Source: Fidelibacterota bacterium (GTDB lineage: Bacteria; Fidelibacterota; Marinisomatia; Marinisomatales; TCS55). Taken from it: a stretch of DNA of 64,000 nucleotides. The DNA lies in NCBI GenBank assembly GCA_016845785.1, contig JAERSH010000044.1, positions 62,001 to 126,000 of the forward strand, in the 5' to 3' direction. The position numbers were made by a program, and so were the translations under genes. The notes beneath the pieces were generated by a model. It was given only the letters and a program-made list of their open reading frames with translations, searched no databases and was not told the origin of the DNA. Positions 5,367-57,660 of this stretch are shown one piece after another. Position 1 is the stretch's first letter. Each line of letters starts with the position of its first letter.

Positions 5367-6612
5367 AAGTTTATTAATCATAATGACTGCATCGGGCATG
5401 ATGTTTAGTCAATCTGTATATAATGCATATGGATTGGGACTTTCCCGTACATCATTTCATACATCAGTGAATGGTGCCGGCAGCATCGGATTGGTGCCCA
5501 CATTCCACCCTGGCGTATCCATGGACAATCCAGCAACATGGCCTGGACTAAAATTCACATATATTAGCGGTTCATTCTCCAACCAAGCCCATGGGTTGAA
5601 AAGTGCAGGGATCACCAATCAAGTGGCAAGATTTAATAAATTACAATTTGTCATTCCTATAAAAGATCGGTTTGGTGTTGGACTTTCATTAAAACCCCTG
5701 AATAGTCACAATGCTTTTTTCAGCACGGACACTGTATCATTTGATTATGAAGGGAAGTCTATTCGTGCCAATAAGGAATTTCGATCCGGTGGTGGCATCA
5801 TGTCCGGTACATTTGGTGTTGCACTACCATTGAATGAACATATGGGAATCGGGTTATCTTTTAATCGCTTATTTGGTTCCTCCCGAGATGAACATTCTAT
5901 GGTATTAAATAATACTTACTATCGATTGTTTAATATTCGAACATACAGCGGTTCAACATTTTCTGTTGATTTTGCCGGCCGATTATTCAAGAATGACAAA
6001 GTGATGTTGCTTACTTTTGCACGAGTAAGTATGACGAATAAACCGGTTTCCGGTTCCTTATATCAGTTTGATTTATTTGAAGATACAAACAACAATTATT
6101 CATTTGATACCGGTGACTATCCTGGTGAAGTTGATGTGGATACCTCTGATGTAGCCAATATTTATGCACCGAACAGTTTTAGTTTTGGTGTCAATGCCAG
6201 TTTTATAAATGACCTGAATATTTTTGGTGAATTTGAATTATGGAATGATGAAGCCACCAATGCGAATTTTGCCAGTATTCACAAGGATCAAATTGGAAGT
6301 AAAACCCATATTGGTTCAGGGTTGGTTCGATTCGGCAGAATGGGTGCAAGAAACTGGCAAGATCGAATGACTTTTAGACTAGGGATGCATAGGGATACTT
6401 ATCAATTTATATACTCCGGAAAATCATTAATTGAGAATGGTATCTCAGTGGGATTTGGGTTTAAATTCGCCGCCACCGGAAATCAGATAGATTTTTCATT
6501 CCGAAATGGTACTCGAACATTTGATGAATCCCAAAAAGAAGTATTAAAAGAATTTACAGTAGGAGTTAGCCTGGGAGACATATGGTTTCTCAGAAGAAGA
6601 GGTAAACAATGA
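5353..6612 (+). CDS. Outer-membrane beta-barrel protein (FadL/PorV-like fold)
   Basis: The protein has 419 residues and a signal peptide ending near MMFSQS. It continues with a glycine- and aromatic-rich pattern of alternating strands typical of barrels (FGVGLSLKPLN, MGIGLSFNRLFG, FSFGVNASF, ISVGFGFKFAA) and a C-terminal strand. The N-terminal stretch with MDNPATWPGL resembles the 'NPA' segment of FadL/PorV-type barrels. Substrate is unknown. It overlaps the lipoprotein gene upstream by 14 bases and the TPR lipoprotein gene downstream by 4 (ATGA), so the three probably form one envelope unit. Confidence 0.65.
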   Translation: MSIRKSLLIIMTASGMMFSQSVYNAYGLGLSRTSFHTSVNGAGSIGLVPTFHPGVSMDNPATWPGLKFTYISGSFSNQAHGLKSAGITNQVARFNKLQFVIPIKDRFGVGLSLKPLNSHNAFFSTDTVSFDYEGKSIRANKEFRSGGGIMSGTFGVALPLNEHMGIGLSFNRLFGSSRDEHSMVLNNTYYRLFNIRTYSGSTFSVDFAGRLFKNDKVMLLTFARVSMTNKPVSGSLYQFDLFEDTNNNYSFDTGDYPGEVDVDTSDVANIYAPNSFSFGVNASFINDLNIFGEFELWNDEATNANFASIHKDQIGSKTHIGSGLVRFGRMGARNWQDRMTFRLGMHRDTYQFIYSGKSLIENGISVGFGFKFAATGNQIDFSFRNGTRTFDESQKEVLKEFTVGVSLGDIWFLRRRGKQ

Positions 6613-7874
6613 GACAAAACAAATTTATTCAAAAGCTGTTGCTATTGGGTGTTGCATCCATCTTTATGACCATGTGTACACCACCTGAACAGTCAGACGC
6701 TGATGCAGATGCAGCCGAACAAGCCCGCGCAGATTCAATTAGAAAAGTAAGATGCCCAAGAGTATTTAGCAGTGCCGCTGAATTCTATAAAAATAGAGAT
6801 TGGGAAGCAACGGTTCGCGCTTATGATGAACTTACTGACTTGGGTTGCGATAGAGAAGATCCTCAAGAAGTATATCTCTATTATGCAATTGCCTATGAAT
6901 ACATGGGAAAATATGATAGTTCTGCAACTGTGCTCTTGAAAGGACTGACACTTCTCCCTGACAATGTGGATTTAAGAAAGCGTCTTGCATTTGCTTATGA
7001 AAAGCAAGGTAAAACAAATCTCCATATGGATGAATTGGATCGTCTTTCATTCCTCGCACCTGAAGATGTAGAAATTAAAAACAAGTTAGCCAAATTGTAT
7101 GGTGAGCAAGACAGATATGACGATCAAATCGCTGTATTGAAGGACCTTTTAGAAATTCAACCCAACAATGAAGGCGCCCAAAGTGATTTGGCTCAAGCTT
7201 ACGAAAAAAGCGGCCGTGACCCATTGGATGTATACAAAAATCGGTTTGATAATAATCCCGATAATGTAAGCTATGGATTAGATTATGCCGATAAACTGAT
7301 TGCTGCTGATCGCCCTGATGATGCCACCGACGTGTTACAGCAGGTTGTAGATGTTGATCCAACCAGCAAAGTGGCATACCGAAAATTAGCTCAAGCATAT
7401 GATTCTGCAGACCGTTTGGGTGATGCAGCGCGGACCTACGAACGATTATTTAAATTAGATCCGCGTGATTTTCGTGTGGCTATAAAAATCTCAGAAGTCT
7501 ATGTAGAAGACCAAGACTATGCCTCCGCGTTTGATTGGGCAGATAAAGCCGCCACACTCTCTGGAGAGGGAGAAGCTTTTGGCGCAAAAGGGAATGTATA
7601 TTACAAGGCATTTCAATCCTGCCGTTCCGGCGAAATATCTGTGGATGACAGAGTCGTCGCAACTCTCGCGTATAAATATTATGATGAAGCAGAGCAAAAA
7701 GGATTTTCGCGTTATAACCGTTCAAAAGAATGGTTGAAAGAAAATGAAGTTCTTTTCGGAAGAGCCCAATGGTTTATGATGGATGCAGAAGTGAAAAATA
7801 AAGGTTATGTAAAAGCATCTAGTGCCTGTTATAGATGGGTAAATGAAAAATTAAATAAAGGTAAAGGCTGGTAG
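6609..7874 (+). CDS. TPR-repeat lipoprotein
   Basis: This 421-residue protein has a signal peptide with a lipobox-like end (MTMC, Cys about residue 23), then an Ala/Asp-rich linker, then TPR repeats through most of its length. Repeats include VYLYYAIAYEYMGKYD, LAKLYGEQDRYDDQI, LAQAYEKSG, LAQAYDSADRLGDAA and a C-terminal YKYYDEAEQKGFSRYN. TPR proteins of this kind are scaffolds in envelope complexes; the partner cannot be told from sequence. The start overlaps the barrel gene upstream by ATGA, which suggests the barrel may be a partner. Confidence 0.75.
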   Translation: MRQNKFIQKLLLLGVASIFMTMCTPPEQSDADADAAEQARADSIRKVRCPRVFSSAAEFYKNRDWEATVRAYDELTDLGCDREDPQEVYLYYAIAYEYMGKYDSSATVLLKGLTLLPDNVDLRKRLAFAYEKQGKTNLHMDELDRLSFLAPEDVEIKNKLAKLYGEQDRYDDQIAVLKDLLEIQPNNEGAQSDLAQAYEKSGRDPLDVYKNRFDNNPDNVSYGLDYADKLIAADRPDDATDVLQQVVDVDPTSKVAYRKLAQAYDSADRLGDAARTYERLFKLDPRDFRVAIKISEVYVEDQDYASAFDWADKAATLSGEGEAFGAKGNVYYKAFQSCRSGEISVDDRVVATLAYKYYDEAEQKGFSRYNRSKEWLKENEVLFGRAQWFMMDAEVKNKGYVKASSACYRWVNEKLNKGKGW

Positions 7875-34624: not shown

Positions 34625-36686
<2,062 letters not shown>

Positions 36687-40150: not shown

Positions 40151-41443
40151 ATGCGCACGAAAATTAAATCCATTTTTACCCTCATTTCGCTGTGGAGCAT
40201 AATCGCCGCTGCACCGCCAGTATTAAATGTATATGTCATTCCATTTGATAATATTAAAAATGATGTAGCCATTGGATGGCTTTCAGATGCTTTTGCCGAA
40301 ATGGTGAATAAAGAATTGAGCCAGCATGATCGAATCTATTTAAAAGATAAATCAGGCTTAGAAGAAGTCATGACCAATCGTTCACTATTATTAAAACAGC
40401 GCCCGGGCTCTAAAAATTTGCTCATGCTGGGAAAATTTGAACGATCTTTGGCCAAAATTACCATTTCACTTCAGCTGATTGATATTGCATCTTGGGATGA
40501 ATTGGATCGCAGAAAAATGCGTGGCGATTATAATGATGTAACCGGTATGAATCGACTCCTCACTGAATCCGTGAATATGATGCTAACGCCATATTTGCCA
40601 AAGCCCGTGCAAAGTCCCTATCCTACATTAACGGAAGGAAAGCGGATGCGTACGCCGCCCACCTACGCAGAAAAGGCCATCGATGTAAGTTCATCCATTG
40701 ACGAAGCCATTTTAGAACTGGAGAAAAAATTAGACTTAAATATTGGCGCGAGGGGAGAAGAAGATCTCAAAGCTTTACGCGAAGAAGATGGTGAGTGGGT
40801 ATTGGATATTTCTAAAGATAGTTATGAAGATTCTCGTCCGGAAAATCAATTCAATACCACCATGATGGTGGATGTGTTAGGGAATCTTATGTCTAATCCA
40901 TATCAGGTGAAATTGGAGCGGCCTCAGTTTAATTATGATCCGGATAATCGGAAGGAATTCCAAATTAGTTTACCGGTCGAATATAAACTAAAAGGCAGCA
41001 TCATTAAAGATATGCTCAAGTCATTACCCTACTCCGGATTGAAACAGGATGGTAATTTGACCGTGTTTTATTTTAATCGCGACAAATATAATTTTCCGAA
41101 AGATATTGCAGAAAAAATTCAATTGGGTACTTATCGATCAATTCCGGTCATTCAGCTTTTGGATCAATCAGGAAGACCTTTAGTCGTCTTAGTAGATTCT
41201 CCTGATCAAGGCATCCATGGGATGGACAGTGATCGCGTTCTGTTTAAACCATTTCGATTTTTCTCACCTCTCATTGATTTCGCTGTGGGCGGATGGTCCA
41301 TGCAAGTTTCACTTGAAACAGTGGATATTCCTGTAGAGTACACGTTTAATATGGATGTGAATTCAGCGGATGACATTAGCCGGGTGAGCCTCAAGTTTAT
41401 TCCTGAGAATGAACTTCATACATTTTTAAATAAAATTCTCTAA
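40151..41443 (+). CDS. Secreted CsgG/TolB-N-like protein
   Basis: A 430-residue protein with a signal peptide (to about residue 20). Residues 22-160 resemble the alpha/beta domain shared by CsgG, FlgO and TolB N-domains (NVYVIPFDNIKNDVAIGWLSDAFAEMVNKELS, LMLGKFERSLAKITISLQLIDI). The C-terminal 200 residues are beta-rich and unfamiliar. No lipobox is visible. It heads the run CsgG-like / TlpA-like / barrel / UGPC-protein, and so may belong to an envelope assembly or redox unit. Confidence 0.6.
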   Translation: MRTKIKSIFTLISLWSIIAAAPPVLNVYVIPFDNIKNDVAIGWLSDAFAEMVNKELSQHDRIYLKDKSGLEEVMTNRSLLLKQRPGSKNLLMLGKFERSLAKITISLQLIDIASWDELDRRKMRGDYNDVTGMNRLLTESVNMMLTPYLPKPVQSPYPTLTEGKRMRTPPTYAEKAIDVSSSIDEAILELEKKLDLNIGARGEEDLKALREEDGEWVLDISKDSYEDSRPENQFNTTMMVDVLGNLMSNPYQVKLERPQFNYDPDNRKEFQISLPVEYKLKGSIIKDMLKSLPYSGLKQDGNLTVFYFNRDKYNFPKDIAEKIQLGTYRSIPVIQLLDQSGRPLVVLVDSPDQGIHGMDSDRVLFKPFRFFSPLIDFAVGGWSMQVSLETVDIPVEYTFNMDVNSADDISRVSLKFIPENELHTFLNKIL

Positions 41444-41454
41444 AAATTTTCATC

Positions 41455-41943
41455 ATGCTTAAACGATTGTTTATAATCGTCATGTTTTTGATTGGAGTAT
41501 TGGTGGGTCAAAATCAAGTCCCTGATATTCAACTCAAAAAACTGGATGGCAAATCAGCCCAACTCCATTCCTATTTGAAGGACGGGCCTGTATTAATCAA
41601 TTTTTGGGCCACGTGGTGTGCCCCGTGCAAAAAAGAAATGGTCTATCTTGATGAATTTGAAAAGCGGTATAATAAAGATGGGTTTTCTATTTTGGCCATC
41701 AGTATCGATAGCCCCAAAAGTTTGTCAAATGTCCGCAGTTATATCCGCGCCAAAAAGTATTCATTTCGAATTTTTATCGATCCAAATCGGCAAACCTTTA
41801 AAAAACTTAATGGGAACCTAATGCCCACAAATATTTTGATTGGCCAAGACGGGAAAATTCTGTGGCGTCATTATGGCTATTTGCCAGGCAATGAAAAAAC
41901 CATGGAAGCTGAGATTCGCGCTGCTCTAAAATATAATTTTTAG
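41455..41943 (+). CDS. TlpA-like periplasmic thioredoxin
   Basis: A 162-residue thioredoxin-fold protein with a signal peptide (to about LVGQ, residue 20). The redox motif is WCAPC (in FWATWCAPCKKEM), and the TlpA/ResA insertion region (FSILAISIDSPKSLSNVRSYIRAKKYSF) and cis-proline (LMPTNILIG) are present. It should act as a thiol-disulfide reductase in the periplasm. It is separated by 11 bases from the CsgG-like gene and by 8 from the barrel gene. It is a candidate reductant for the UGPC protein encoded two genes downstream. Confidence 0.9.
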   Translation: MLKRLFIIVMFLIGVLVGQNQVPDIQLKKLDGKSAQLHSYLKDGPVLINFWATWCAPCKKEMVYLDEFEKRYNKDGFSILAISIDSPKSLSNVRSYIRAKKYSFRIFIDPNRQTFKKLNGNLMPTNILIGQDGKILWRHYGYLPGNEKTMEAEIRAALKYNF

Positions 41944-41951
41944 TTGATCCA

Positions 41952-43655
41952 ATGAATAAACTTCGTTGCTTTCTCATGCTAGGTGTTTTCTGTCAGATTT
42001 TACTGGCCCAATTCAATTTATCCGGGACTACATCCTTAGGGTATGGGGATAGCGAAAATGATTTCAATTTTTCGGAGCATCGTGTTGACTTGAATGGCAA
42101 TTGGAATCAATGGATAGGGTGGATGCAATTCGAATATGCAAAACCACCTCAGTTGGGTCGTGAAGATGCAGGACTTCGAAAATTTCGTCTTGAATATGTA
42201 AAAGATAATTTTACCATTAAGTTGGGTGATATATATGAATATTGGGGCCGCGGATTAATGCTCAACATGGAGGATGATCAATCCATAGATTTGGATACTG
42301 GGCTTCGAGGCGGACTTCTTCAATGGTCAAGCGATGTAGTTTCCGCTGAAGTGTTAGGGGGTACACAATCCATTTGGCGATTAACCAACCAAGTAACAGG
42401 ATTTAACGATCGTGTTCCCAATTATAAAGTTGAACATGGAATGGTGGGTGGACGAGTTTCTTTTAATGGGGATCGGTGGCAAGGCAGTATTCAATTTTTA
42501 AATAGTAAAGAAGATCATCCAAATCCCATTACAAATGAGAATGATAACATCAACCACAATATGATGGGAGGCACACTTCATTATTTTGCGGACAATATGG
42601 ATGCAACCATTGATTACGTCAAAAAGGACAAAAGCGGTTTTGGCTTTTATTCGAACGCAAATGTATTTCTAGGTTTATGGTCGATTGGATTGTCCTATAA
42701 AAATTATTCCTTCGCCACTTTACCACCATCTGATCGTTGGAATTTTGTAAACAACACCGGCGGCGCACTTACTATGCAGCAAATGCCCACTGGCTTTCGA
42801 ACCCATAATTCCAGTTTATTGGGTAAGATTACCCATTTGATCGATTTTAATGATGAAGTCGGTTACTATTTTACACTGTCTGGTCCTGTATTTAATGATG
42901 CATTATTTACATTGGAGTGGGCCAAATCCAGCCGACACAATGAATGGTATAACGATATCCAATGGAATTGGCAATCTCGGGATGCTGTATCTTTACCATC
43001 GTCAAATCCACTCATGAATCCGTTTCAAGAAATCTATGCTGAACTCAATGGGTATGCCATGGGCCAAAAATTCTACTATGTGATTGGTGTGGTAAAAACA
43101 GAAGATGTGTTAGATATATTTACAAACCAAGAAATCGATCAATATCAATCCTATAGTTACGAAAGTATAGAAGCGGTGACAATACCCACACACTTCACGT
43201 ATCGATTTGATAATCAATATAGTATCGATATTCTTTTCGAGTATCAGGACAAGAAAAAAGGATTTAACACATTTTCAAATTTTCCAAGTTTTGGACATGA
43301 TATATTTGGTTCTCTTTATTTAAAGGAAAAACAAATTAATCGATTTATCAGTGTAGGCATAGCGAAATCGCCACGTTGGTCTGCATCGTTGAGTGTGGAT
43401 TATGCGGATACAGAAGAGCGTGCAGTGGTCGAACAAGAACGAAAGAATAATGCCATCGAAAAAGCATTGGACTCAATTTGGGATACGTCCTTGACATGGG
43501 CCAACCTTGAAGTTGTCATCAATCTAAATCAGAATAATCGATTGGCCATTTCTTATGGATCCCTCCGTGGCGGTGTGTATTGCAGCAATGGTGTCTGTAG
43601 ATATATTCAGCCCTTTGAAAATGGGTTTAAATTTGGGCTGGTTTCTACCTTTTAG
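41952..43655 (+). CDS. Outer-membrane beta-barrel protein (DUF6029-like)
   Basis: A 567-residue protein with a signal peptide (to LLAQ) and many amphipathic strands (FKLGDIYEYWGRGLMLNMEDD, MVGGRVSFNGDRWQGSIQFL, GFKFGLVSTF at the C-terminus), consistent with a barrel. The segment around LGDIYEYWGRGL resembles DUF6029-type barrels of Bacteroidota. I recall such genes next to TlpA and Omp28-like genes in that phylum, but I cannot verify this here. It ends 32 bases before the UGPC protein gene. Confidence 0.6.
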   Translation: MNKLRCFLMLGVFCQILLAQFNLSGTTSLGYGDSENDFNFSEHRVDLNGNWNQWIGWMQFEYAKPPQLGREDAGLRKFRLEYVKDNFTIKLGDIYEYWGRGLMLNMEDDQSIDLDTGLRGGLLQWSSDVVSAEVLGGTQSIWRLTNQVTGFNDRVPNYKVEHGMVGGRVSFNGDRWQGSIQFLNSKEDHPNPITNENDNINHNMMGGTLHYFADNMDATIDYVKKDKSGFGFYSNANVFLGLWSIGLSYKNYSFATLPPSDRWNFVNNTGGALTMQQMPTGFRTHNSSLLGKITHLIDFNDEVGYYFTLSGPVFNDALFTLEWAKSSRHNEWYNDIQWNWQSRDAVSLPSSNPLMNPFQEIYAELNGYAMGQKFYYVIGVVKTEDVLDIFTNQEIDQYQSYSYESIEAVTIPTHFTYRFDNQYSIDILFEYQDKKKGFNTFSNFPSFGHDIFGSLYLKEKQINRFISVGIAKSPRWSASLSVDYADTEERAVVEQERKNNAIEKALDSIWDTSLTWANLEVVINLNQNNRLAISYGSLRGGVYCSNGVCRYIQPFENGFKFGLVSTF

Positions 43656-43687
43656 GTAAATTTAAACCTTAATATTTGAGAATAAAT

Positions 43688-44746
43688 TTGAAAAAACTAA
43701 TCACACTCCTTACTGCATTTGCATTTTTGACTTATGCTTGCGATGATAAGTCCGGAGAGGACGCACAAGTGCCCGAAACCATAGACATATCGCCGGGGAG
43801 CGGTCGTCTCATGCTGCAGCCTGGGCAAACCATTCAACTCAAATCACGGGTGATTGATCAAAAAAATCAAGAAATCTTAGATGCGAAAGTAGTCTGGTCT
43901 TCGGAAAATAATGCCGTAGCTACCGTCAGTGAAAATGGTGTGGTCACTGCAAAGGGAGTTGGTGTCACGACCATTATAGCAACCTTTGAAACATTGCAAG
44001 GGATGAGAGGGGTGACGGTCAGTACCATAAAAAGACGCGTACTGAGTGAAATGTTCACCTCTAGTACATGAGGACCATGTGCATCCGCGGAGCGGATATT
44101 CAATGGCACAAAAAAACCAGGCACTGCGAATTATGTCGGTGCAGATTTGGATACAATCTGGACAACCATTGCCTACCATGTGTGGTGGCCGGGGCAAGGC
44201 AACGATCCAATGTATCTCGCCAATCCAAATATGAATAGATCACGAAGTGGGTTTTATGGAAATAGCTTTACGCCCCAAATGTTTACCAATGGCAAGGACT
44301 CAGAACATATTGTAAACAATTGGATTAGCCACCCTAAACAGTATATTGGAGAAATTTCCCTATACGATATTTCGATCTCGGGGACACAAAGTGGAAATGA
44401 TATCAGTTTTACGGTAAGATCAACATCCTTGCAAAGTGTGGATTCCGGTGATGATATTCGATTGTTTATTGCCACAGTCATGGGGCAAGTCATGTATGAT
44501 GCATCACCCAATGGATTAAGAGACCATCATGATGCGGTGATTGAATTGGTCCCGGGAAACACAGGTAAAAAAATCGATTATATTGCTGGTGTGGAATATG
44601 AGGAAACGATTGAATGGTCCATGCCCGACAATTGGATCAATCATGCGGATATCACTTGGAAAAGTGAAGACTTAAAAGTGGTGGTTTGGATTCAAGACTA
44701 CAGTTCAAAAAAAGTCCTTCAAGTGATGGATTTTGATTTTGAATAA
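43688..44746 (+). CDS. Omp28-like thioredoxin-fold lipoprotein, predicted selenoprotein (UGPC motif; in-frame TGA at 44069-44071)
   Basis: Read through the in-frame TGA, this is one 352-residue protein. It has a signal peptide with lipobox LTYAC (Cys18), a Big2-type Ig-like domain (about 30-115, with WSSENNAVATVSENGVVTAKG), and a thioredoxin-like domain. The last starts EMFTSST-U128-GPC131, has AYHVWWPGQGNDPMY in the middle and a cis-Pro196 in SFTPQMFTNG. A C-terminal beta-domain closes it. Family relatives have CxxC where UGPC stands. The frame is open for 224 codons after the TGA and ends at TAA. A SECIS-like hairpin follows the TGA. The likely start is TTG at 43688 (or 43676). A nonsense mutation or sequencing error turning TGC/TGT into TGA is the alternative. 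No sel genes lie in the window. Confidence 0.8.
44072..44110 (+). other. Candidate bacterial SECIS element
   Basis: Directly after the TGA, ATCCGC (44083-44088) and GCGGAT (44092-44097) form a perfect 6-bp stem with the apical loop GGA (44089-44091). The stem can extend downward through G79-C101 and CCAT (44075-44078) with ATGG (44103-44106). The loop begins 17 bases after the TGA and starts with GG. Known bacterial SECIS elements have a short apical loop with an early G at about this distance. Confidence 0.65.
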
Positions 44747-48514: not shown

Positions 48515-49327
48515 ATGAAGCAAGGATCTCGCACCTTTCTACCCATACCATTACTACTGGGATTATTCCTGGTGCTAACCCCTTTTACTACCCTTTCTGC
48601 CCAAGATGAAGAAGACGATGCGGTAGAAGAAATTTTTTGGGGAGACGAAGAAGAGGATGATGTCGGTTTAGATGAAGAATTTGATTTTTCTGACGATGAA
48701 GCCGAAGATGATTTAGAAGGATTTGAATTTGAAGACGATGAATCCTTTGATGATGAATTCGCTGAAGATGATGAATTTGCTGAAGATGATGAATTTGCTG
48801 ACGATGAAGGTGGTGATGATTTTGCCGATGACTTCGCCGATGAACCGGAAGAAAGCATTCAGGAAGCGGCCAGTCGTCTCGGTTATACATTAAATATAAT
48901 TGGATCCTCTCCGGGCTTCGTCAATCACCAACTCCGGACATACAATTCAGGTGTGGACTTTCGTGCAGCTTTTGAATTCCCCATGTTATTGAGTTTAGGG
49001 CCCGTCCGTTTTCGACTCGGGGCAGAGGTGGGCACATTCAATTTCACCAACTATAAACCCATAGGTGGAACATACTCCGGCGTCCATGTAACTGGGATCT
49101 TATCATTCCCTGCAGGGCCGGGACAAGTTCGACTTGGCGGTGGTATGGTGGGCAAAGGTTTTGGCGTCATTGCAGAAAATTCTTACGGCTTCGCTGTGGG
49201 GGACGCATTGGATATCCGATTGGGGCTTCGATCTACCACAGCCTTTAATGTGACTGACGATAAAAAGAATAAACTCGGCACCGTGAGTTGGATGGATGGC
49301 ATCATTGTGCTTGGGGTGAGTTTATAA
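48515..49327 (+). CDS. Secreted protein with acidic repeat domain and barrel-like C-terminus
   Basis: A 270-residue protein with a signal peptide (PIPLLLGLFLVLTPFTTLSAQ). Residues about 30-118 are almost entirely Asp, Glu, Phe, Ala and Gly, with a tandem EFAEDD-type repeat. The last 150 residues have a glycine-rich strand pattern (RLGAEVGTFNF, GVHVTGILSFPAG, DIRLGLRSTTAF) that resembles a small outer-membrane barrel or OmpA-like fold. ATG at 48515 is used because it has GGA 7 bases upstream and gives a normal signal peptide; a GTG at 48476 is in frame. Function is unknown; calcium or cation binding by the acidic tract is an inference. Confidence 0.65.
   Translation: MKQGSRTFLPIPLLLGLFLVLTPFTTLSAQDEEDDAVEEIFWGDEEEDDVGLDEEFDFSDDEAEDDLEGFEFEDDESFDDEFAEDDEFAEDDEFADDEGGDDFADDFADEPEESIQEAASRLGYTLNIIGSSPGFVNHQLRTYNSGVDFRAAFEFPMLLSLGPVRFRLGAEVGTFNFTNYKPIGGTYSGVHVTGILSFPAGPGQVRLGGGMVGKGFGVIAENSYGFAVGDALDIRLGLRSTTAFNVTDDKKNKLGTVSWMDGIIVLGVSL
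48752..48805 (+). repeat. Three 18-base tandem repeats in the acidic-domain gene
   Basis: Units at 48752-48769, 48770-48787 and 48788-48805 start GATGAATT and differ by one or two bases; each encodes DEFAED or DEFADD. Tandem in-frame repeats of this kind can change length by slippage. Confidence 0.85.
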
Positions 49328-49353
49328 TTCTAACTTTTTCTGAATTTAAGATA

Positions 49354-52300
49354 ATGATAAAGCTGAACCGATTACTCGTTTTAATTGGGACTATGTGCAT
49401 AGTATTTTCCCAGACATCTAGTCATTATTTCCAATCGAGAGGTAGTAATCTAGGTGCCAATTATTTCAATGAGAATACAACGGCATTAAGACTTTATTTT
49501 ACTGCATCTGAAGCATTAACAAATCCACAAGTATTTGGAAAAATAACTACATCAAATCTGTCAAGCTGTGATGAAAACACCTTTGATGTTAATAGTCCAC
49601 TAGAGTTGGGGACGGGAAACGGTAGCACTTTATCTGGTAATATTTGGGGGACTTCAATATCCAATGGAGTTTCTGCCTATATAGATTTATATCCAAGTGA
49701 AATTTATTCTACCCTTGGAGCAAACAGTGATTGGAGCAATAAAGAAGGTGATCGACTTTACCTCGGAATCCGGTTTAATTCCAGTAATGCAAAATGGGAT
49801 TGCCCGACAGATTCGGACGGCGATGGTGACAATACAAATAATTCACAAGCTGATGGTAATGGGATTTATTATTTTTTAATTGATAGAACCGATCCTACAC
49901 TATCATCTATTTTAGAACATTCAGTTAATGAAACGATTTATGGGGATCCAGATTATATAAAAACACCAAGTTTGGCTATTACAATCGGAAGTGAAAATGT
50001 ATCTACTGGAGGGATTACGTGGACAGTCGTATCAGGAGGTGGGAGTACCGTTTCAGATTCTGATGCACTTGATGGTGCCAATGCAAGCAACACAGTAAAT
50101 ATGACTACTGACCCCGGTTTGGTAGATGGAACTGTTTACAATATTACATTTACTATCAATGATGCAGCCGGCAATTCTGCTACATATACCCGTTCGAATG
50201 TGTTGTATGATACAAGTGCACCAACTGTTTCGGGTGTTCATAGTGAAGAATCCAATGCAGCAATGCTTGCAGAAGGTGCTATAGCAGATTTTTATGTGGA
50301 ATTTTCTGAAAATGTAAATTTTACTGGCACACCCCAAATCACTTTAAAATCAAATTCATCAGCTACAGCCACAGTTAATTGTGCAACCTGTACAAATGGT
50401 ACGGATAAGGCATATTTTGATTGGACCGTTCCTGATGGTGCATACTCAGTCTATTTAGATTATGAAGCTACTAATTCATTATCCGGAACCATCAAAGATT
50501 TAGCTGGGAATAGTGCGACACTTACTCTGCCGGCACCCCCGTCATGGGGAAGTCAGGGAACAAATGCTTCTTTGAGTGGCGCATCTACAGGTGGATATTT
50601 CGGTGTAGATGGTGATGACCCAGCTTCATTTACAGCCGGGACAGTGGTGACCACAGGTGGGAATGTGACAGCCAATTACTGGAATGGATCCAATACAGGA
50701 GTAGATGTAACAATCCCCGTAGCAAATGATGGAAGCCTTGAAGATGGCACCGTACAATTACAATCTGAAGCAGATGGTACATATGAAAATATTGGTGGCG
50801 CATATACCATTACCAATAGTGACCTAAATGGCAATGTGACGCTCTCAGTGAATGGATCCGGTTCAGCCAATACTGATGTCACTGAACTGAGTGGATATTC
50901 ACAAAGCGATGAATTACAATGGCGAGCAGTTATTACAGATAAATCTGGGAATGCAACAACCGGAACGGCTAGTTCAACAACACTCACTGTCGATACAGTG
51001 GCGCCCACAGTAGGCAGCGTTACCAGTACTGACGGGTTTTATAAAGCAACTGAATCTGTAGATGTGGTTGTAAATTTTAGTGAAAATGTATCCATCAGCG
51101 GTACACCTCAATTAACTCTAAATACAGATAATTCTCCCGGTTCTGCAGATGCAGCTGTGGATAAATCCGGACTTTCCGGGTCAGCGGTAACCTTTGCATA
51201 TACTGTCGGGACTGAACATTATTCCAGTGACTTAGACTATGAGAGCACCTCAGCGCTTACTGCTGGTACTTATATCAGGGATACAGCAGGAAATGACGCT
51301 ACATTAACTTTGCCAGCAGTTGGAACATTTGCGGCTGCCCAAGCCGTTGTGGTGGATGGCGTATCTCCAGCGGCATTTACAACCGGAACTGTAATTACAG
51401 TTGGTGTACCGGTTGTGGCCAATTATTGGAATGAAGATAATACAAGTGTGAACGTGACCGTTCCCATCGCCAATGATGCTTCACTTGAAAATGGGAAATT
51501 ATACATACAGGCAAAAATTGGTGCAAATGCCTATGCCAATGTGTCTTCAGCATACACTATTCAATCTGGAGACTTAGGATCAAATAAAACAATTTCTGTA
51601 TCCGCATCAAATTTAGAAGGTATTACTGGATTCGCCGAAGGTGCTTCCGTTTCATTTACAGCCCTTTTAGAAGACTACGCAGATGGCGCAGGGGGAACAG
51701 GAAATCAAACAACAGGGACTGCATCTTCTACAACATTAACTGTTGATCAACGGGATCACGCTGCATTTACAACGGGTGCAGTCATAACACTTACGGAACC
51801 AGTTGTCGCTGGTTATTGGAATTTCCATAATACTGGCCTTACCGTAGCCGTACCCATTGAGAATGAAGCTTCTCATGAAAATGGTTGGGTTCAGATTATT
51901 GCTAAAACCGCTAGCGGTACATATGAAGACATTGGGGATTCTGTTCAAATTGCTAGTGGAGATTTAGGTAGCAATGTTACGGTTACTTTAACGGCAGCAC
52001 AATTTGAAGCGATTACTGGTTTTGCCGATGGTGAAACCATTACCATAAATTCTAGAATAGATGACGTGGCCGGAAATGCCACAACCGGTACGGCTAGTAG
52101 TACCACATTGGCTGTGGATCAAACTGCACCTACCGTAACTCATGTATCTTCAGACACTACAGATGCCAATCCATTTGGAATTGATGACAACATTCCACTG
52201 ACTGTCAAATTTGATGGAAGTGTTAATATAGTCACATCTGGGGGTACGCCATATTTATCTCTTGATACGGATGAATCTCCTGGAAATACCACTTCAACCG

Positions 52301-55300
52301 CATCCTATAACGCGGGTACCGGTTCTAGTGATATTATTCTCCGATATAAAGTGGCAGCGAATGAATACAGTGCCGATTTGAATTATATCAATACGTCCTC
52401 TTTGGTGACGAACGGAGGGTCTATTCGGGATGCGGCAGGGAATAATGCCACACTCACACTACCGGGAATTGCCGATAATAATGCATTAAAGCAAAAAAAA
52501 GATATTTGGATTGATGGTGTAGCTCCAGCCGCGGGTACAGTAGATTCTGTAAAGACCACGGGTGGTACCGTTATGGAAGGATTTTGGAATGCCACCAACA
52601 CAGGTGCATGGGTCAAAGTATTGTTAAGTGCATCCGATGTAAGCCTTGAGGGCGGGTCTGTGCAAATCACGGCTGAAGCGGATGGAACATTTGAAAATAT
52701 TGGCTCAGCAGGGACAATTCTTTCTGGGGATGTAACAGCAGGATATAAGAAAATTAGCCTTACTGCTGCACATATTGAAGGGTTAAGCGGCTATAGCGAC
52801 CAAACTCCAAATCCGGATGTGATATCATTTAAAGCAGTTGTCACAGATAAGGCCGGGAATGCTACTACCTATGATGCAAGCGCAACAACGTTGATAGTGG
52901 ATGAAACGGATCCATCTGCATTTACATTAGGGGGAATTGTAACGGTTTCGGATGAAGTAGTAGCCGGTTATTGGAATGAAGACAACACGGCCATCAATGT
53001 ATCCATTCCAATCGCTAATGATGCTACCCTCGAGAATGGTCGAATTATGATAGAAGCAGAGGCAGATGGTAGCTATGAATATATCGGCAGTGGATCTTTG
53101 TACAATTTTGCCGCATATGTACCAGCCGATCATGAAGATTATTATAAAGATTGGACAACCGTTGCAAATGGAGAATTGAATAGTACGAAAACGATTACCA
53201 TTAATGGAGCATCTACTTCATTAGCGATTCGGGAATTAGAAGAATTAACCAACTTCTCCGATGGGGATGAAATCACATTCAGAGCCATCATCATGGACGC
53301 AGCAGGGAATACCACCACTGGAACTGTATCTGCCACCACATTAATTGTTGACCAAACCGATCCAGTGACACCCACCATTGTGTTGAAAACAGATTCAGAT
53401 ACGGGAATCGGTAATTGGGACAAACTCACGAATGACGATACGCCCACATTCACTCTCACTAATTTGACCAATACAGATTCAGTTTTTCTGAAAGTGGCTA
53501 CGGATGCAGCCACATTGGCTCAGCGCACATCCATAGTGGTTCGTGAAAAAACTGCATCTACAACCAAAGATTTGACGCCAGCCAGCTATGCGAATGGTAC
53601 ATATTTGGTGACAGCAGTAGTAAAAGATGTGGCCGGTAACTGGGGATCTGATGCCACCAATACATTCGTTCGGATTGATACGATTCCGCCCGATGTACCC
53701 AATGCACCGGATATGCTGGAAGCTGATGATACAGGCTTTAAAAATAATGACAATATAACCAAAACCACCCAGCCCCATTTCATATTCACGGGCTTATCTG
53801 CAACGATTGATTCTCTCAGATTGGTGATTGATGCAGGCGCTTCTGTGGGACGTGATTCCATCATGTCTCAAGTGACGACGGATACATTTAAAGTGAGTAC
53901 CGCTTTGGCCAGTGGATATCATACAGCCGGTGTTATTGCCATCGATTCAGCTGGAAATGTGCAGGACACAAGTGCATTCTTAGGTTTTGTCGTAGATAAC
54001 GTAGCGCCACCCATTTTAACAGCGCCGGATATGACCGCAGCTACGGATTTGGGTATGAGAACCACAGACAATATAACGAAAGTCCAAAAGCCCAATTTTG
54101 ATATGACCAACTTAGAACTGGGTGCATTTATTAATTTGTATCATGTGGATGGAACACCCGATACCACCATGGCGAAATCCGATACAGTAGGGACAGGGGT
54201 AACCACCATTACATTGGCGCCGACAGTCAATATGGATGATGGTACTTATACCATGTACGCTACAGCCGAAGATACAGCAGGGAACACTTCTGAAAGTACA
54301 GACTTAGCCGGGGTAGTGATTGATGCGACTGCACCCACTATTACCACCCATTATTACAACAAAACCATTCATACGGCCTATGGTCTATTTGCCAATAAAT
54401 ATAATGCTGATTCGGTGAAATTTGGGAAAGGTGGCGATGAACTGGAATTGATTGCCAAATTGAGTGAACCAGCAGGGACAAGCCCCGAACCTACATTGGA
54501 TGTCACTTATGGCGGTGGCGCAACACCAACAGTAGATGATATGGCCAAAACCAGCAAAGCCAATAATGATTCTACATGGACATGGAAATTTAATTTACCG
54601 ACGGGTGCAGCAAATAACGGTACTGCCAAAGTAGAATTTACGGCATATGACATTGCAGGAAATCTGGCCACTTCCTTCACAGATACCCAGTCCTTTGTCG
54701 TAGATAATACGGCCCCCGCAGCATTTACCACCGGTTTGGCCACGGCCCATGGGGATACGAATGTATCCATGTTGGTGGATGCAAAGACAGGGTGGTTCAT
54801 TAATAAAGCCACAGATAGCCTTAAAATTCTTGTGAATATTGATGCGACAGACAATTCCCTTGTTGGGGGTGGTTATGTGGATATTCAAGCAAGCGTTCGG
54901 AATAAAATGGTGAATTCCTGGGCCAGTATTAAAACGAAGAATACAACCAATCCATTTGCAGATCAGGATTCTACAGAAGGGCTGGGGACGAATAAAGTTT
55001 TCTTAAGAAAGAAAACCGATCTGGTTTCTTCTCTAACCGGAAGTGGGCTAGTACAAGGGGATACGATTGATTTTCGTGCGGTTATTTATGATAAAGCATT
55101 AAACTTTACAGCCGGCACCCAAAGTGAATCATTTTTTGTCTTAGACACATTACCTCCAACAATTGGTACTCACATTGGAGATACGCTTTTTACTGCCTAT
55201 GATAAAAGCAATTTATTGTCCGTAAATCGTTATTTAAGCTGGACAAGTGACACAGTTGGCTTTGGTATAAAAAATTGGGTAGATCCCGTTAATATTAATG

Positions 55301-57660
55301 AAAAAGCATCCGGCATAGATCGATTTGAATATGCCCTTTACCAAGGCGCAGATAGTACGGCTGCTACCACTTATACAAAGTTTCGGGATTATAAAGTACA
55401 TCCAAATAAAACCGATTCTGTAGTTGTTGATACATTTGCACTCACCCATCTTAGGCGATACCGAATACATGTAAGGGCAGTAGACGTTGCCGGAAATACA
55501 TCTGATTCAAACAATGCAAATGCGATCTCTAGTTCGTTTGTGAGACATAATGCACGACCGGTTGTGGATACGGTGGCTGCACTCATCGCGCAAGAAGACG
55601 TTTTACTCGAACAATTATTAACCGTAAATGACAAAGATTTATTAACACTTCGTTCAGATGAGTTCACCTATGCACTCACCACTATGAAGTTGGATACGAC
55701 GGCCACACCCATCGATTCTGCAGTTGTAACGAATTTAACTGCGGCTGTTTCTACCAGTGGAAAAGTCAGTTTTACGGCAACAAAATTGGATACGGCCAAA
55801 TATGTATTTCGAGTAATTGTCACCGATAATTGGACATTGAAAGATACGGTGGATCTTAATATCAGAGCCCTACCGGTCAATGATCCGCCAGTGTTGGATT
55901 TATCATCTATCACAAAATTATCCTTCTTAGAAGGGGCGAATAGCGATTCTATTAACTTAACCCGTTATGTGTATGATGAGGATAATGATACATCATCCAT
56001 CAAATTCTCATTTCGGATTGCATCGAAGATTCCCGCCAACATTGGTTATCCCACAGCGAAAATGGGATTCTTGTCCGATTTCAGCAACGATTTTAAAAAG
56101 TCGTTTATCAGCAAACTAGTGGATGAATTTCCTTCGTCCACCATTATTCAAAAGAATAATGCTTTCGTGGTGTATCCGGCCAATGTGACGAAATTCAGAG
56201 ATCCCATTAAGGTGGATTCATTGCGCCAAAGTGATTCTCTCTATACGTGGATTATGCCCACGGATACGGCGTCCGCTGATACGAATTATTATACTGAATC
56301 GGATATGATGGTTGAATTTACCGCCACTGATCCTGATGGTCTTGAGGGGAAAGATACAGTCACATTTTTCATTAATCCCATTAACGATCCGCCAGTATGG
56401 GCCGGATTGCGAGATACAGTGGTAAAAGAGAATGACTCGCTTTATCTCGACTTTGCCAATTATTTAACCGATGTGGACGATTCCACATTGACTCTATCCA
56501 TTCTGCCATTAAGCCATGATGCCAATGTAACGGTGGAGCCATCCAAGACATTTGAGAAGAAAGCCACAGGATATGTTTATACGAGTAAGGCGACAAAAGA
56601 TACAGTCAAATTCAAACCGGATTCATTATGGTTTAAGAAAGATTATGGACCATGGAATCCGTCCGATACATTAAGTAATCAAATTAAATTTCAAATTACG
56701 GCCGCTGATGGCGACACAACTGCAATCGATACGTTTGTCGTCAAAGTCCAGCGTGTACCACGTCCTGAGATCCGCATGTACGTTGTCCAAAACAATGCGT
56801 TCACCAATTATTACGAGATCTTTCTCGTAGATTCGGTGGGTAAGACAAAGGACCTTACACTGAAAGTTCAGTCAAAAGCTGTGACACTGGACACAGCGGC
56901 CGCATATACTTACGTGGGACACTATAATTTTCAATCGAAGGGGAATTATACATTTGAAGTGGATGCAACTGGAATGGTTGGTGATACATCTATTACAGAA
57001 ACAGTAGGTCTCACCCTAGCCAAAATGTACGGCACGTGGTCCGGTCGAAGTGCAGATGGTCAATTCCAGGTGATTGGCCAAAATGGTGCTGTGGATTTTG
57101 ATCAATCCATCATGATTTTAGATTCAACACTATTTGAGCCATATTTTAACGATCGTGCATCCTATTTATTGGGGAATGAAGCATATCGATTTAAGAAATC
57201 TGTAGAAATTTCCATGCCCGGTGACGATGAAGAAATGGCCATTTACAGACGATCTACCGGTAGCGGTTGGATCGAATTGCCATCCATCACCATGGGGAAT
57301 CGAGTGAATGCATATTCGGAACAGATGGGCTATTTCCGGATGGGCCCAAAAACCTTAATCGTGCCCGGGCAGACATCTCTGCATCAGAATTATCCCAATC
57401 CATTTAATCCCACCACGACAATTGAATACGACCTTGGGTTTATCGATGGGCCATTCCAACGCGTCAATGTGACTGTTTATGATATTCTTGGCCGGAATGT
57501 GAAAACATTGGTGAGCGAAGAGCAAAGTATTGGAAGATATCGCGTTCGTTGGAACGGGAAAGATGCAAATGGCGTGCCAGTATCCTCCGGTGTTTATTTT
57601 GTCCATTTACTCACGGATATGGGTCGGAGCCAAACGAAGAAAATTATGTTAATGCGATGA
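49354..57660 (+). CDS. Giant modular surface protein (2768 aa) with type IX sorting domain
   Basis: ATG at 49354 gives a signal peptide (LLVLIGTMCIVFSQ); 49288 would add unrelated residues. The protein is a string of Ig-like modules. One type (A) begins around YWNxxNT and ends TTGTASSTTLTVD, with copies near residues 440, 689, 819, 1075 and 1204. A second type (B, APTVxxVxS ... FSENVxxxGTPQLTL) is interleaved. Three Ig-like modules of the DNITK type follow (about 1335-1600), then two cadherin-like modules starting NDPP (about 2176, 2345). The C-terminus has HQNYPNPFNPTTT and SSGVYFVHLLTD, a classic type IX sorting domain. Thrombospondin-like DSDGDGDNTNN lies near residue 155. A surface adhesin is likely. 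Confidence 0.85.
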   Translation: MIKLNRLLVLIGTMCIVFSQTSSHYFQSRGSNLGANYFNENTTALRLYFTASEALTNPQVFGKITTSNLSSCDENTFDVNSPLELGTGNGSTLSGNIWGTSISNGVSAYIDLYPSEIYSTLGANSDWSNKEGDRLYLGIRFNSSNAKWDCPTDSDGDGDNTNNSQADGNGIYYFLIDRTDPTLSSILEHSVNETIYGDPDYIKTPSLAITIGSENVSTGGITWTVVSGGGSTVSDSDALDGANASNTVNMTTDPGLVDGTVYNITFTINDAAGNSATYTRSNVLYDTSAPTVSGVHSEESNAAMLAEGAIADFYVEFSENVNFTGTPQITLKSNSSATATVNCATCTNGTDKAYFDWTVPDGAYSVYLDYEATNSLSGTIKDLAGNSATLTLPAPPSWGSQGTNASLSGASTGGYFGVDGDDPASFTAGTVVTTGGNVTANYWNGSNTGVDVTIPVANDGSLEDGTVQLQSEADGTYENIGGAYTITNSDLNGNVTLSVNGSGSANTDVTELSGYSQSDELQWRAVITDKSGNATTGTASSTTLTVDTVAPTVGSVTSTDGFYKATESVDVVVNFSENVSISGTPQLTLNTDNSPGSADAAVDKSGLSGSAVTFAYTVGTEHYSSDLDYESTSALTAGTYIRDTAGNDATLTLPAVGTFAAAQAVVVDGVSPAAFTTGTVITVGVPVVANYWNEDNTSVNVTVPIANDASLENGKLYIQAKIGANAYANVSSAYTIQSGDLGSNKTISVSASNLEGITGFAEGASVSFTALLEDYADGAGGTGNQTTGTASSTTLTVDQRDHAAFTTGAVITLTEPVVAGYWNFHNTGLTVAVPIENEASHENGWVQIIAKTASGTYEDIGDSVQIASGDLGSNVTVTLTAAQFEAITGFADGETITINSRIDDVAGNATTGTASSTTLAVDQTAPTVTHVSSDTTDANPFGIDDNIPLTVKFDGSVNIVTSGGTPYLSLDTDESPGNTTSTASYNAGTGSSDIILRYKVAANEYSADLNYINTSSLVTNGGSIRDAAGNNATLTLPGIADNNALKQKKDIWIDGVAPAAGTVDSVKTTGGTVMEGFWNATNTGAWVKVLLSASDVSLEGGSVQITAEADGTFENIGSAGTILSGDVTAGYKKISLTAAHIEGLSGYSDQTPNPDVISFKAVVTDKAGNATTYDASATTLIVDETDPSAFTLGGIVTVSDEVVAGYWNEDNTAINVSIPIANDATLENGRIMIEAEADGSYEYIGSGSLYNFAAYVPADHEDYYKDWTTVANGELNSTKTITINGASTSLAIRELEELTNFSDGDEITFRAIIMDAAGNTTTGTVSATTLIVDQTDPVTPTIVLKTDSDTGIGNWDKLTNDDTPTFTLTNLTNTDSVFLKVATDAATLAQRTSIVVREKTASTTKDLTPASYANGTYLVTAVVKDVAGNWGSDATNTFVRIDTIPPDVPNAPDMLEADDTGFKNNDNITKTTQPHFIFTGLSATIDSLRLVIDAGASVGRDSIMSQVTTDTFKVSTALASGYHTAGVIAIDSAGNVQDTSAFLGFVVDNVAPPILTAPDMTAATDLGMRTTDNITKVQKPNFDMTNLELGAFINLYHVDGTPDTTMAKSDTVGTGVTTITLAPTVNMDDGTYTMYATAEDTAGNTSESTDLAGVVIDATAPTITTHYYNKTIHTAYGLFANKYNADSVKFGKGGDELELIAKLSEPAGTSPEPTLDVTYGGGATPTVDDMAKTSKANNDSTWTWKFNLPTGAANNGTAKVEFTAYDIAGNLATSFTDTQSFVVDNTAPAAFTTGLATAHGDTNVSMLVDAKTGWFINKATDSLKILVNIDATDNSLVGGGYVDIQASVRNKMVNSWASIKTKNTTNPFADQDSTEGLGTNKVFLRKKTDLVSSLTGSGLVQGDTIDFRAVIYDKALNFTAGTQSESFFVLDTLPPTIGTHIGDTLFTAYDKSNLLSVNRYLSWTSDTVGFGIKNWVDPVNINEKASGIDRFEYALYQGADSTAATTYTKFRDYKVHPNKTDSVVVDTFALTHLRRYRIHVRAVDVAGNTSDSNNANAISSSFVRHNARPVVDTVAALIAQEDVLLEQLLTVNDKDLLTLRSDEFTYALTTMKLDTTATPIDSAVVTNLTAAVSTSGKVSFTATKLDTAKYVFRVIVTDNWTLKDTVDLNIRALPVNDPPVLDLSSITKLSFLEGANSDSINLTRYVYDEDNDTSSIKFSFRIASKIPANIGYPTAKMGFLSDFSNDFKKSFISKLVDEFPSSTIIQKNNAFVVYPANVTKFRDPIKVDSLRQSDSLYTWIMPTDTASADTNYYTESDMMVEFTATDPDGLEGKDTVTFFINPINDPPVWAGLRDTVVKENDSLYLDFANYLTDVDDSTLTLSILPLSHDANVTVEPSKTFEKKATGYVYTSKATKDTVKFKPDSLWFKKDYGPWNPSDTLSNQIKFQITAADGDTTAIDTFVVKVQRVPRPEIRMYVVQNNAFTNYYEIFLVDSVGKTKDLTLKVQSKAVTLDTAAAYTYVGHYNFQSKGNYTFEVDATGMVGDTSITETVGLTLAKMYGTWSGRSADGQFQVIGQNGAVDFDQSIMILDSTLFEPYFNDRASYLLGNEAYRFKKSVEISMPGDDEEMAIYRRSTGSGWIELPSITMGNRVNAYSEQMGYFRMGPKTLIVPGQTSLHQNYPNPFNPTTTIEYDLGFIDGPFQRVNVTVYDILGRNVKTLVSEEQSIGRYRVRWNGKDANGVPVSSGVYFVHLLTDMGRSQTKKIMLMR

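Follow-up and report, generated by a model that had tools for sequence, protein, structure and literature searches.

We conclude that the TGA codon in the middle of the gene described here almost certainly encodes selenocysteine (Sec), giving one full-length selenium-containing envelope redox protein. The gene lies on the forward strand (43688..44746) of the 64,000-nucleotide stretch of Fidelibacterota DNA that was analysed (the window), part of a 2.16-Mb metagenome-assembled genome (MAG) of 93 contigs that is 93% complete. Read from a TTG start at 43688 (another TTG in the same frame, at 43676, could also serve), the product has 352 residues with selenocysteine at position 128, and homologues align with it over its full length. 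Translation of this frame yields a single internal stop, the TGA at 44069..44071, which occupies the first position of the UGPC motif in FTSST-U-GPC, and a terminal TAA; an earlier, sequence-only reading of this DNA had described the same arrangement. It had also anticipated that automatic annotation would break the gene, and gene finding with translation table 11 calls two ORFs, 43676-44071 and 44147-44746. The sequence comparisons set out below make a case for selenocysteine decoding that is close to the strongest comparative genomics can provide.

Two ORFs are also what would be called if the TGA were a true stop, whether in a pseudogene, through a sequencing error or between two separate genes. 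The distribution of the codon makes this extremely improbable. The identical TGA recurs, in independent assemblies, in 9 of 9 GTDB homologues that share 43-58% protein identity with the window protein, and in each the frame continues past it; the protein is conserved on both sides of the codon, with no other stop. The closest homologues come from MAGs of Candidatus Marinimicrobia / Neomarinimicrobiota (Fidelibacterota). In 101 related genomes the close homologues, where random stops or frameshifts would have counted against a selenoprotein, each have exactly one stop, always TGA; more distant homologues mostly have no stop or one TGA. The pattern holds in a scan of 245 genomes of the phylum, where nearly every full homologue contains no stop or exactly one TGA. 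Codon 128 is TGA, TGT or TGC in every inspected homologue with a readable motif, a placement that is therefore far beyond chance. The Cys or Sec sought at residue 128 of the joined protein is thus found in 50 distinct homologues across the phylum, encoded by TGA in 34 and by TGT or TGC in 16, and a tree of these 50 domains requires at least six Sec/Cys switches. Relatives without sel genes have Cys at that codon, and the reduced genomes of family f15, in which no selA passes the cut-off, carry the Cys form of the protein. Sister proteins from one genus, UPGC with TGA (L127) and CSGC with Cys (L126), represent a recent switch of this kind.

Genome-wide reassignment of TGA, for example to Trp or Gly, would equally leave the frame open, and we consider it even less credible than a true stop. 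Of 37 long frames in the window, 6 end in TGA; the frame at 35600, whose TGA the sequence-only reading had correctly cited as a normal stop, is among those that do. Only at 44069-44071 in these 64 kb is a TGA preceded by more than 100 and followed by more than 80 open codons in frame. Six such terminations and a single interrupted long frame indicate the standard genetic code; furthermore, where homologues have a sense codon at this position it specifies Cys and in no case Trp or Gly.

Selenocysteine decoding is further supported by an RNA element immediately downstream. The SECIS apical stem-loop (44083..44097, forward strand) consists of a 6-bp stem, ATCCGC/GCGGAT, with arms at 44083-44088 and 44092-44097, and a GGA loop at 44089-44091. 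A stem with a GGA loop had been noted from the sequence, and it exists, although it is the loop rather than the stem that starts 17 nt past the TGA. With 6 bp, a GGA loop, a 17-nt spacing and a computed fold energy of -12.8, the element lies within the limits of the published bacterial SECIS model. Covariation was assessed in 22 distinct Sec sequences, comprising the window subfamily, the paralogue from the same genome and the long forms. The same six column pairs are found in the same register throughout this set despite changes in sequence, as between CCGC-GGA-GCGG and CGCA-GGA-UGCG. Pairing is intact in 96.2% of cells, and two-sided changes occur in all six pairs. The covariation score is 0.944, compared with 0.190 in shuffles, none of 500 shuffles reaches 0.944, and the signal is lost when the register is slid by 1-3 columns. 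The GGA loop is invariant. In six Cys homologues, which do not have the element, only 0-2 of the six positions pair.

Codon usage within the stem-loop is similarly constrained. All nine genes of the window subfamily share the codons TCC GCG GAG CGG, which elsewhere in the same genes account for 11-22% of the synonymous codons available to them. A naive estimate that treats the genes as independent puts this at 10^-30, an overstated figure since the nine genes share ancestry. Among 42 codons whose amino acid is invariant, six are invariant at the nucleotide level, and four of these are the TCC GCG GAG CGG run. The Rfam model SECIS_1 (RF00031) had no match in this genome; none was found in control genomes either, which makes the result uninformative. 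An Rfam scan around the selenoprotein gene returned only two tRNAs above threshold.

Several other members of the family have features of their own. The genome that contains the window also encodes a second Sec paralogue (positions 6060-7085 of locus L057; G000:C6:7059-8087), which is 41% identical, has the motif USNC and possesses its own compensated SECIS stem, GGCGC-GGA-GCGUC. Distant homologues from family f30 (L129, L130, L131, L139, L140 and L143) have one TGA at the same position, several of them in open frames of 830-910 codons; some contain a possible CCCC-GCA-GGGG hairpin, a candidate SECIS only. One reduced genome of family f15 contains a broken homologue, in fragments with TAA and TGA (G128:C1:31699-32368).

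The genome was also searched for the selA, selB, selC and selD genes, as had been proposed. It encodes a tRNA-Sec (66.3 bits in Rfam, over the cut-off) with anticodon TCA according to ARAGORN, and two SelD proteins over the cut-off (L120 and L121, on G000:C18 and C5), each with a single TGA of its own in HGSGUACK. Contig C25 ends within a SelB fragment, the C-terminal 206 codons, which is 58-76% identical to SelB of four genomes of the same genus. SelA was not found in this 93%-complete MAG, whose own selB is cut by the contig end. This absence might suggest that UGA is read through with insertion of cysteine or another residue, a possibility that we regard as very unlikely. In the four genomes of the same genus selA directly adjoins selB, and it passes the cut-off in 75 of 101 related genomes; with the contig breaking inside selB, an assembly gap is the simplest explanation. 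Cysteine insertion would also sit poorly with the retention of tRNA-Sec and of two selD genes, both of which contain a TGA themselves.

Taken as a whole, the evidence is very probably best explained by a full-length secreted selenoprotein in which UGA 128 is decoded through SelB and the SECIS element. We propose that SelB carrying Sec-tRNA(UCA) would bind the stem-loop that closely follows UGA 128, with selenocysteine being inserted at this codon in place of termination. The product would be a secreted lipoprotein in which a Big_2 Ig-like spacer is followed by a thioredoxin-like domain with a UGPC active site and by an Omp28-type beta domain. In the cell envelope, the Sec128 selenol would then probably reduce disulfides or peroxides, Cys131 acting as the resolving partner. 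Its re-reduction would probably fall to the TlpA/ResA-like thioredoxin, whose gene lies two genes upstream. The adjacent gene encodes the DUF6029 outer-membrane protein, which the selenoprotein probably serves or close to which it is probably anchored. Both electron donor and substrate are less certain than the redox reaction.

The predicted architecture is consistent with this mechanism. A signal peptide (43688..43741, forward strand, as are the features that follow) ends in a lipoprotein-type cysteine, Cys18, which is invariant in the eight-row alignment A2 and is followed by acidic residues; this leader would make the window protein an envelope lipoprotein, in agreement with the sequence-only reading. 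Residues 32-102 (43781..43993) match the bacterial Ig-like domain Big_2 (PF02368, 42.4 bits against a cut-off of 22.8). The UxxC motif and Pro196 fall within a thioredoxin-like region at residues about 118-223. Alignment A1, of 15 Sec/Cys homologues, shows residue 128, the partner (resolving) cysteine of UGPC at codon 131 (44078..44080), Pro196 and W316 to be invariant. Pro196 (44273..44275) corresponds by analogy to the cis-Pro position of thioredoxins, and both it and the AYHVWWPG segment are as had been described; the C/UxxC pair and the proline stand where a thioredoxin fold would be expected to have them. The remaining part, residues 226-350 (44363..44737), is predicted to be an Omp28-type beta domain, its model aligning with the Porphyromonas gingivalis Omp28 domain (PDB 2r2c) at a TM score of 0.69-0.76 by target length. 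Foldseek also placed KATP channels and S-layer proteins among its top matches, which we ignored as Ig-like or long, low-TM alignments.

A redox reaction at Sec128 is likely, with the term oxidoreductase reflecting motif, conservation and gene neighbourhood. Thus the selenocysteine in the originally proposed Sec-dependent oxidoreductase is supported, whereas the enzymatic half of that description is a deduction from these three features. The selenoprotein could instead be non-catalytic, with Sec128 binding a metal, or could act mainly as a structural or adhesive surface lipoprotein whose thioredoxin-like domain does not perform catalysis. Big_2 domains are common in surface proteins, and little is known of how Omp28 works biochemically; in addition, the thioredoxin-like part is modelled at pLDDT <50 in both structure models, so that its fold is assigned from motif and homology. 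A non-catalytic role is nevertheless unlikely, given that costly selenocysteine has been kept across many genera and exchanged for Cys alone, and that the UxxC pair and the cis-Pro position are invariant.

The redox selenoprotein that we favour is related to a group already on record. NCBIfam model NF045500, 'Omp28-related selenoprotein', corresponds to GOS_C in a 2026 review (table 1 of PMC13188914), a hypothetical protein with a Trx-like fold and a UxxC motif found in ocean metagenomes in 2008 (Zhang and Gladyshev 2008, PLoS Genet, PMC2398784; PMC13188914). NF045500 and the window protein are homologous (hhalign 99.4%, E 4.7e-21), with the Sec of UxxC at the same position, a hairpin downstream, DUF6029 often adjacent and occurrence in related Marinimicrobia in common. 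The window protein differs in its SECIS register, in its motif (UGPC, where NF045500 has UPYC), in the Big_2 domain that precedes the shared part and in the absence of a long C-terminal extension. It scores 12 bits against a curated NF045500 cut-off of 200 and, given this score and the different architecture, belongs to a sister subfamily of NF045500 and is not a member. The sequence-only reading proposed a new selenoprotein; the alignment of the TGA with Sec and Cys codons bears out the selenoprotein, while the Omp28-related group as a whole proves to be partly known (NF045500/GOS_C, the latter with 74 sequences in 2008). Judged against the NF045500 model, the window protein is a new subfamily within a known selenoprotein group. 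Literature searches retrieved no paper on selenoproteins together with Omp28 and no description of the window gene in work on selenoproteins in Marinimicrobia or SAR406.

The suggested relation to Omp28 is sustained both by the fold that the modelled C-terminal domain shares with 2r2c, from an outer-membrane lipoprotein family, and by matches of the Omp28 family PF11551 to 8 of the 15 members of A1 (best 4e-9). For the window protein itself, PF11551 was not reported at E 1 in a Pfam search, and it reaches 14.2 of the 150 bits set for the Omp28 model NF033782, besides carrying Sec. Pfam alone gives Big_2 and a sub-threshold DUF1223 hit for this protein. DUF1223 (PF06764; PDB 2axo) matches weakly over the region of the redox motif, at 20.3 bits (2axo, E 0.089), but the match is below the gathering score and the architecture differs. 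To our knowledge, DUF1223 is not a selenoprotein family. The TlpA/ResA thiol-disulfide oxidoreductases follow the same CxxC/UxxC envelope thioredoxin logic; they are nonetheless a different family, and the one encoded two genes upstream has Cys (WCAPC) where the window protein has Sec.

Much of what can be said about partners comes from the gene neighbourhood. The gene string (forward strand) starts with a conserved envelope gene, syntenic in relatives (40151..41443; no match in Pfam or NCBIfam), and continues with the TlpA/ResA-like thioredoxin (41455..41943; PF08534, 95 bits; 90 bits to the ResA model, below its 170-bit cut-off) and a DUF6029 gene (41952..43655; PF19494, 49.1 bits) for a probable outer-membrane beta-barrel. 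A 2022 study found DUF6029 similarity among Wzi-type beta-barrels (PMC9603273). Most close relatives with long enough flanks share the order glnS, envelope gene, TlpA/ResA-like thioredoxin, DUF6029, selenoprotein. In most examined loci of the family, DUF6029 is the immediate neighbour of the selenoprotein or of the corresponding Cys form. It also stands beside many NF045500-type genes (such as L073, L074, L075, L077 and L078) and beside a third thioredoxin-like family with a TGA (L091, L092, L094 and L095). Members of this third family are ~500 aa long, with UGPC or UPSC motifs (FATW-U / FTSW-U) and a stem-loop with a GGC loop. The partnership is statistical only, as one Sec form (L019/L030) and the second paralogue, L057, do not have DUF6029 alongside; L057 is also without an adjacent TlpA gene. 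A PADLOC search found nothing. Further along the selenoprotein's strand, at 49288-57660, lies a 2790-aa ORF in which Ig-like repeats were recognised by eye, as was a secretion-type sorting domain at the C-terminus.

From this neighbourhood of DUF6029 and thioredoxin genes we infer an envelope redox unit. We tentatively suggest, as a possibility somewhat short of even odds, that it is a selenium-dependent unit found across the phylum Marinimicrobia, in which DUF6029 and a dedicated thioredoxin-like selenoprotein would act on secreted or surface proteins. With the same reservation, the selenoprotein of such a unit would come from one of several branches: the Big_2-Omp28 type, the long Omp28 type, the NF045500 type or the separate UGPC/UPSC thioredoxin type.

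Overall, the protein described here represents a clear new subfamily of selenoproteins, from abundant ocean bacteria that have not been cultured. Standard annotation breaks such a protein into two, and the curated model of its nearest relative fails to detect it. With a SECIS only in the tested Sec forms, the many natural Sec/Cys pairs are well suited to testing selenoprotein prediction and to asking why ocean bacteria keep selenocysteine. Finally, the recurrent pairing of DUF6029 with these selenoprotein branches is unexplored, and it provides a handle on an uncharacterised outer-membrane family.
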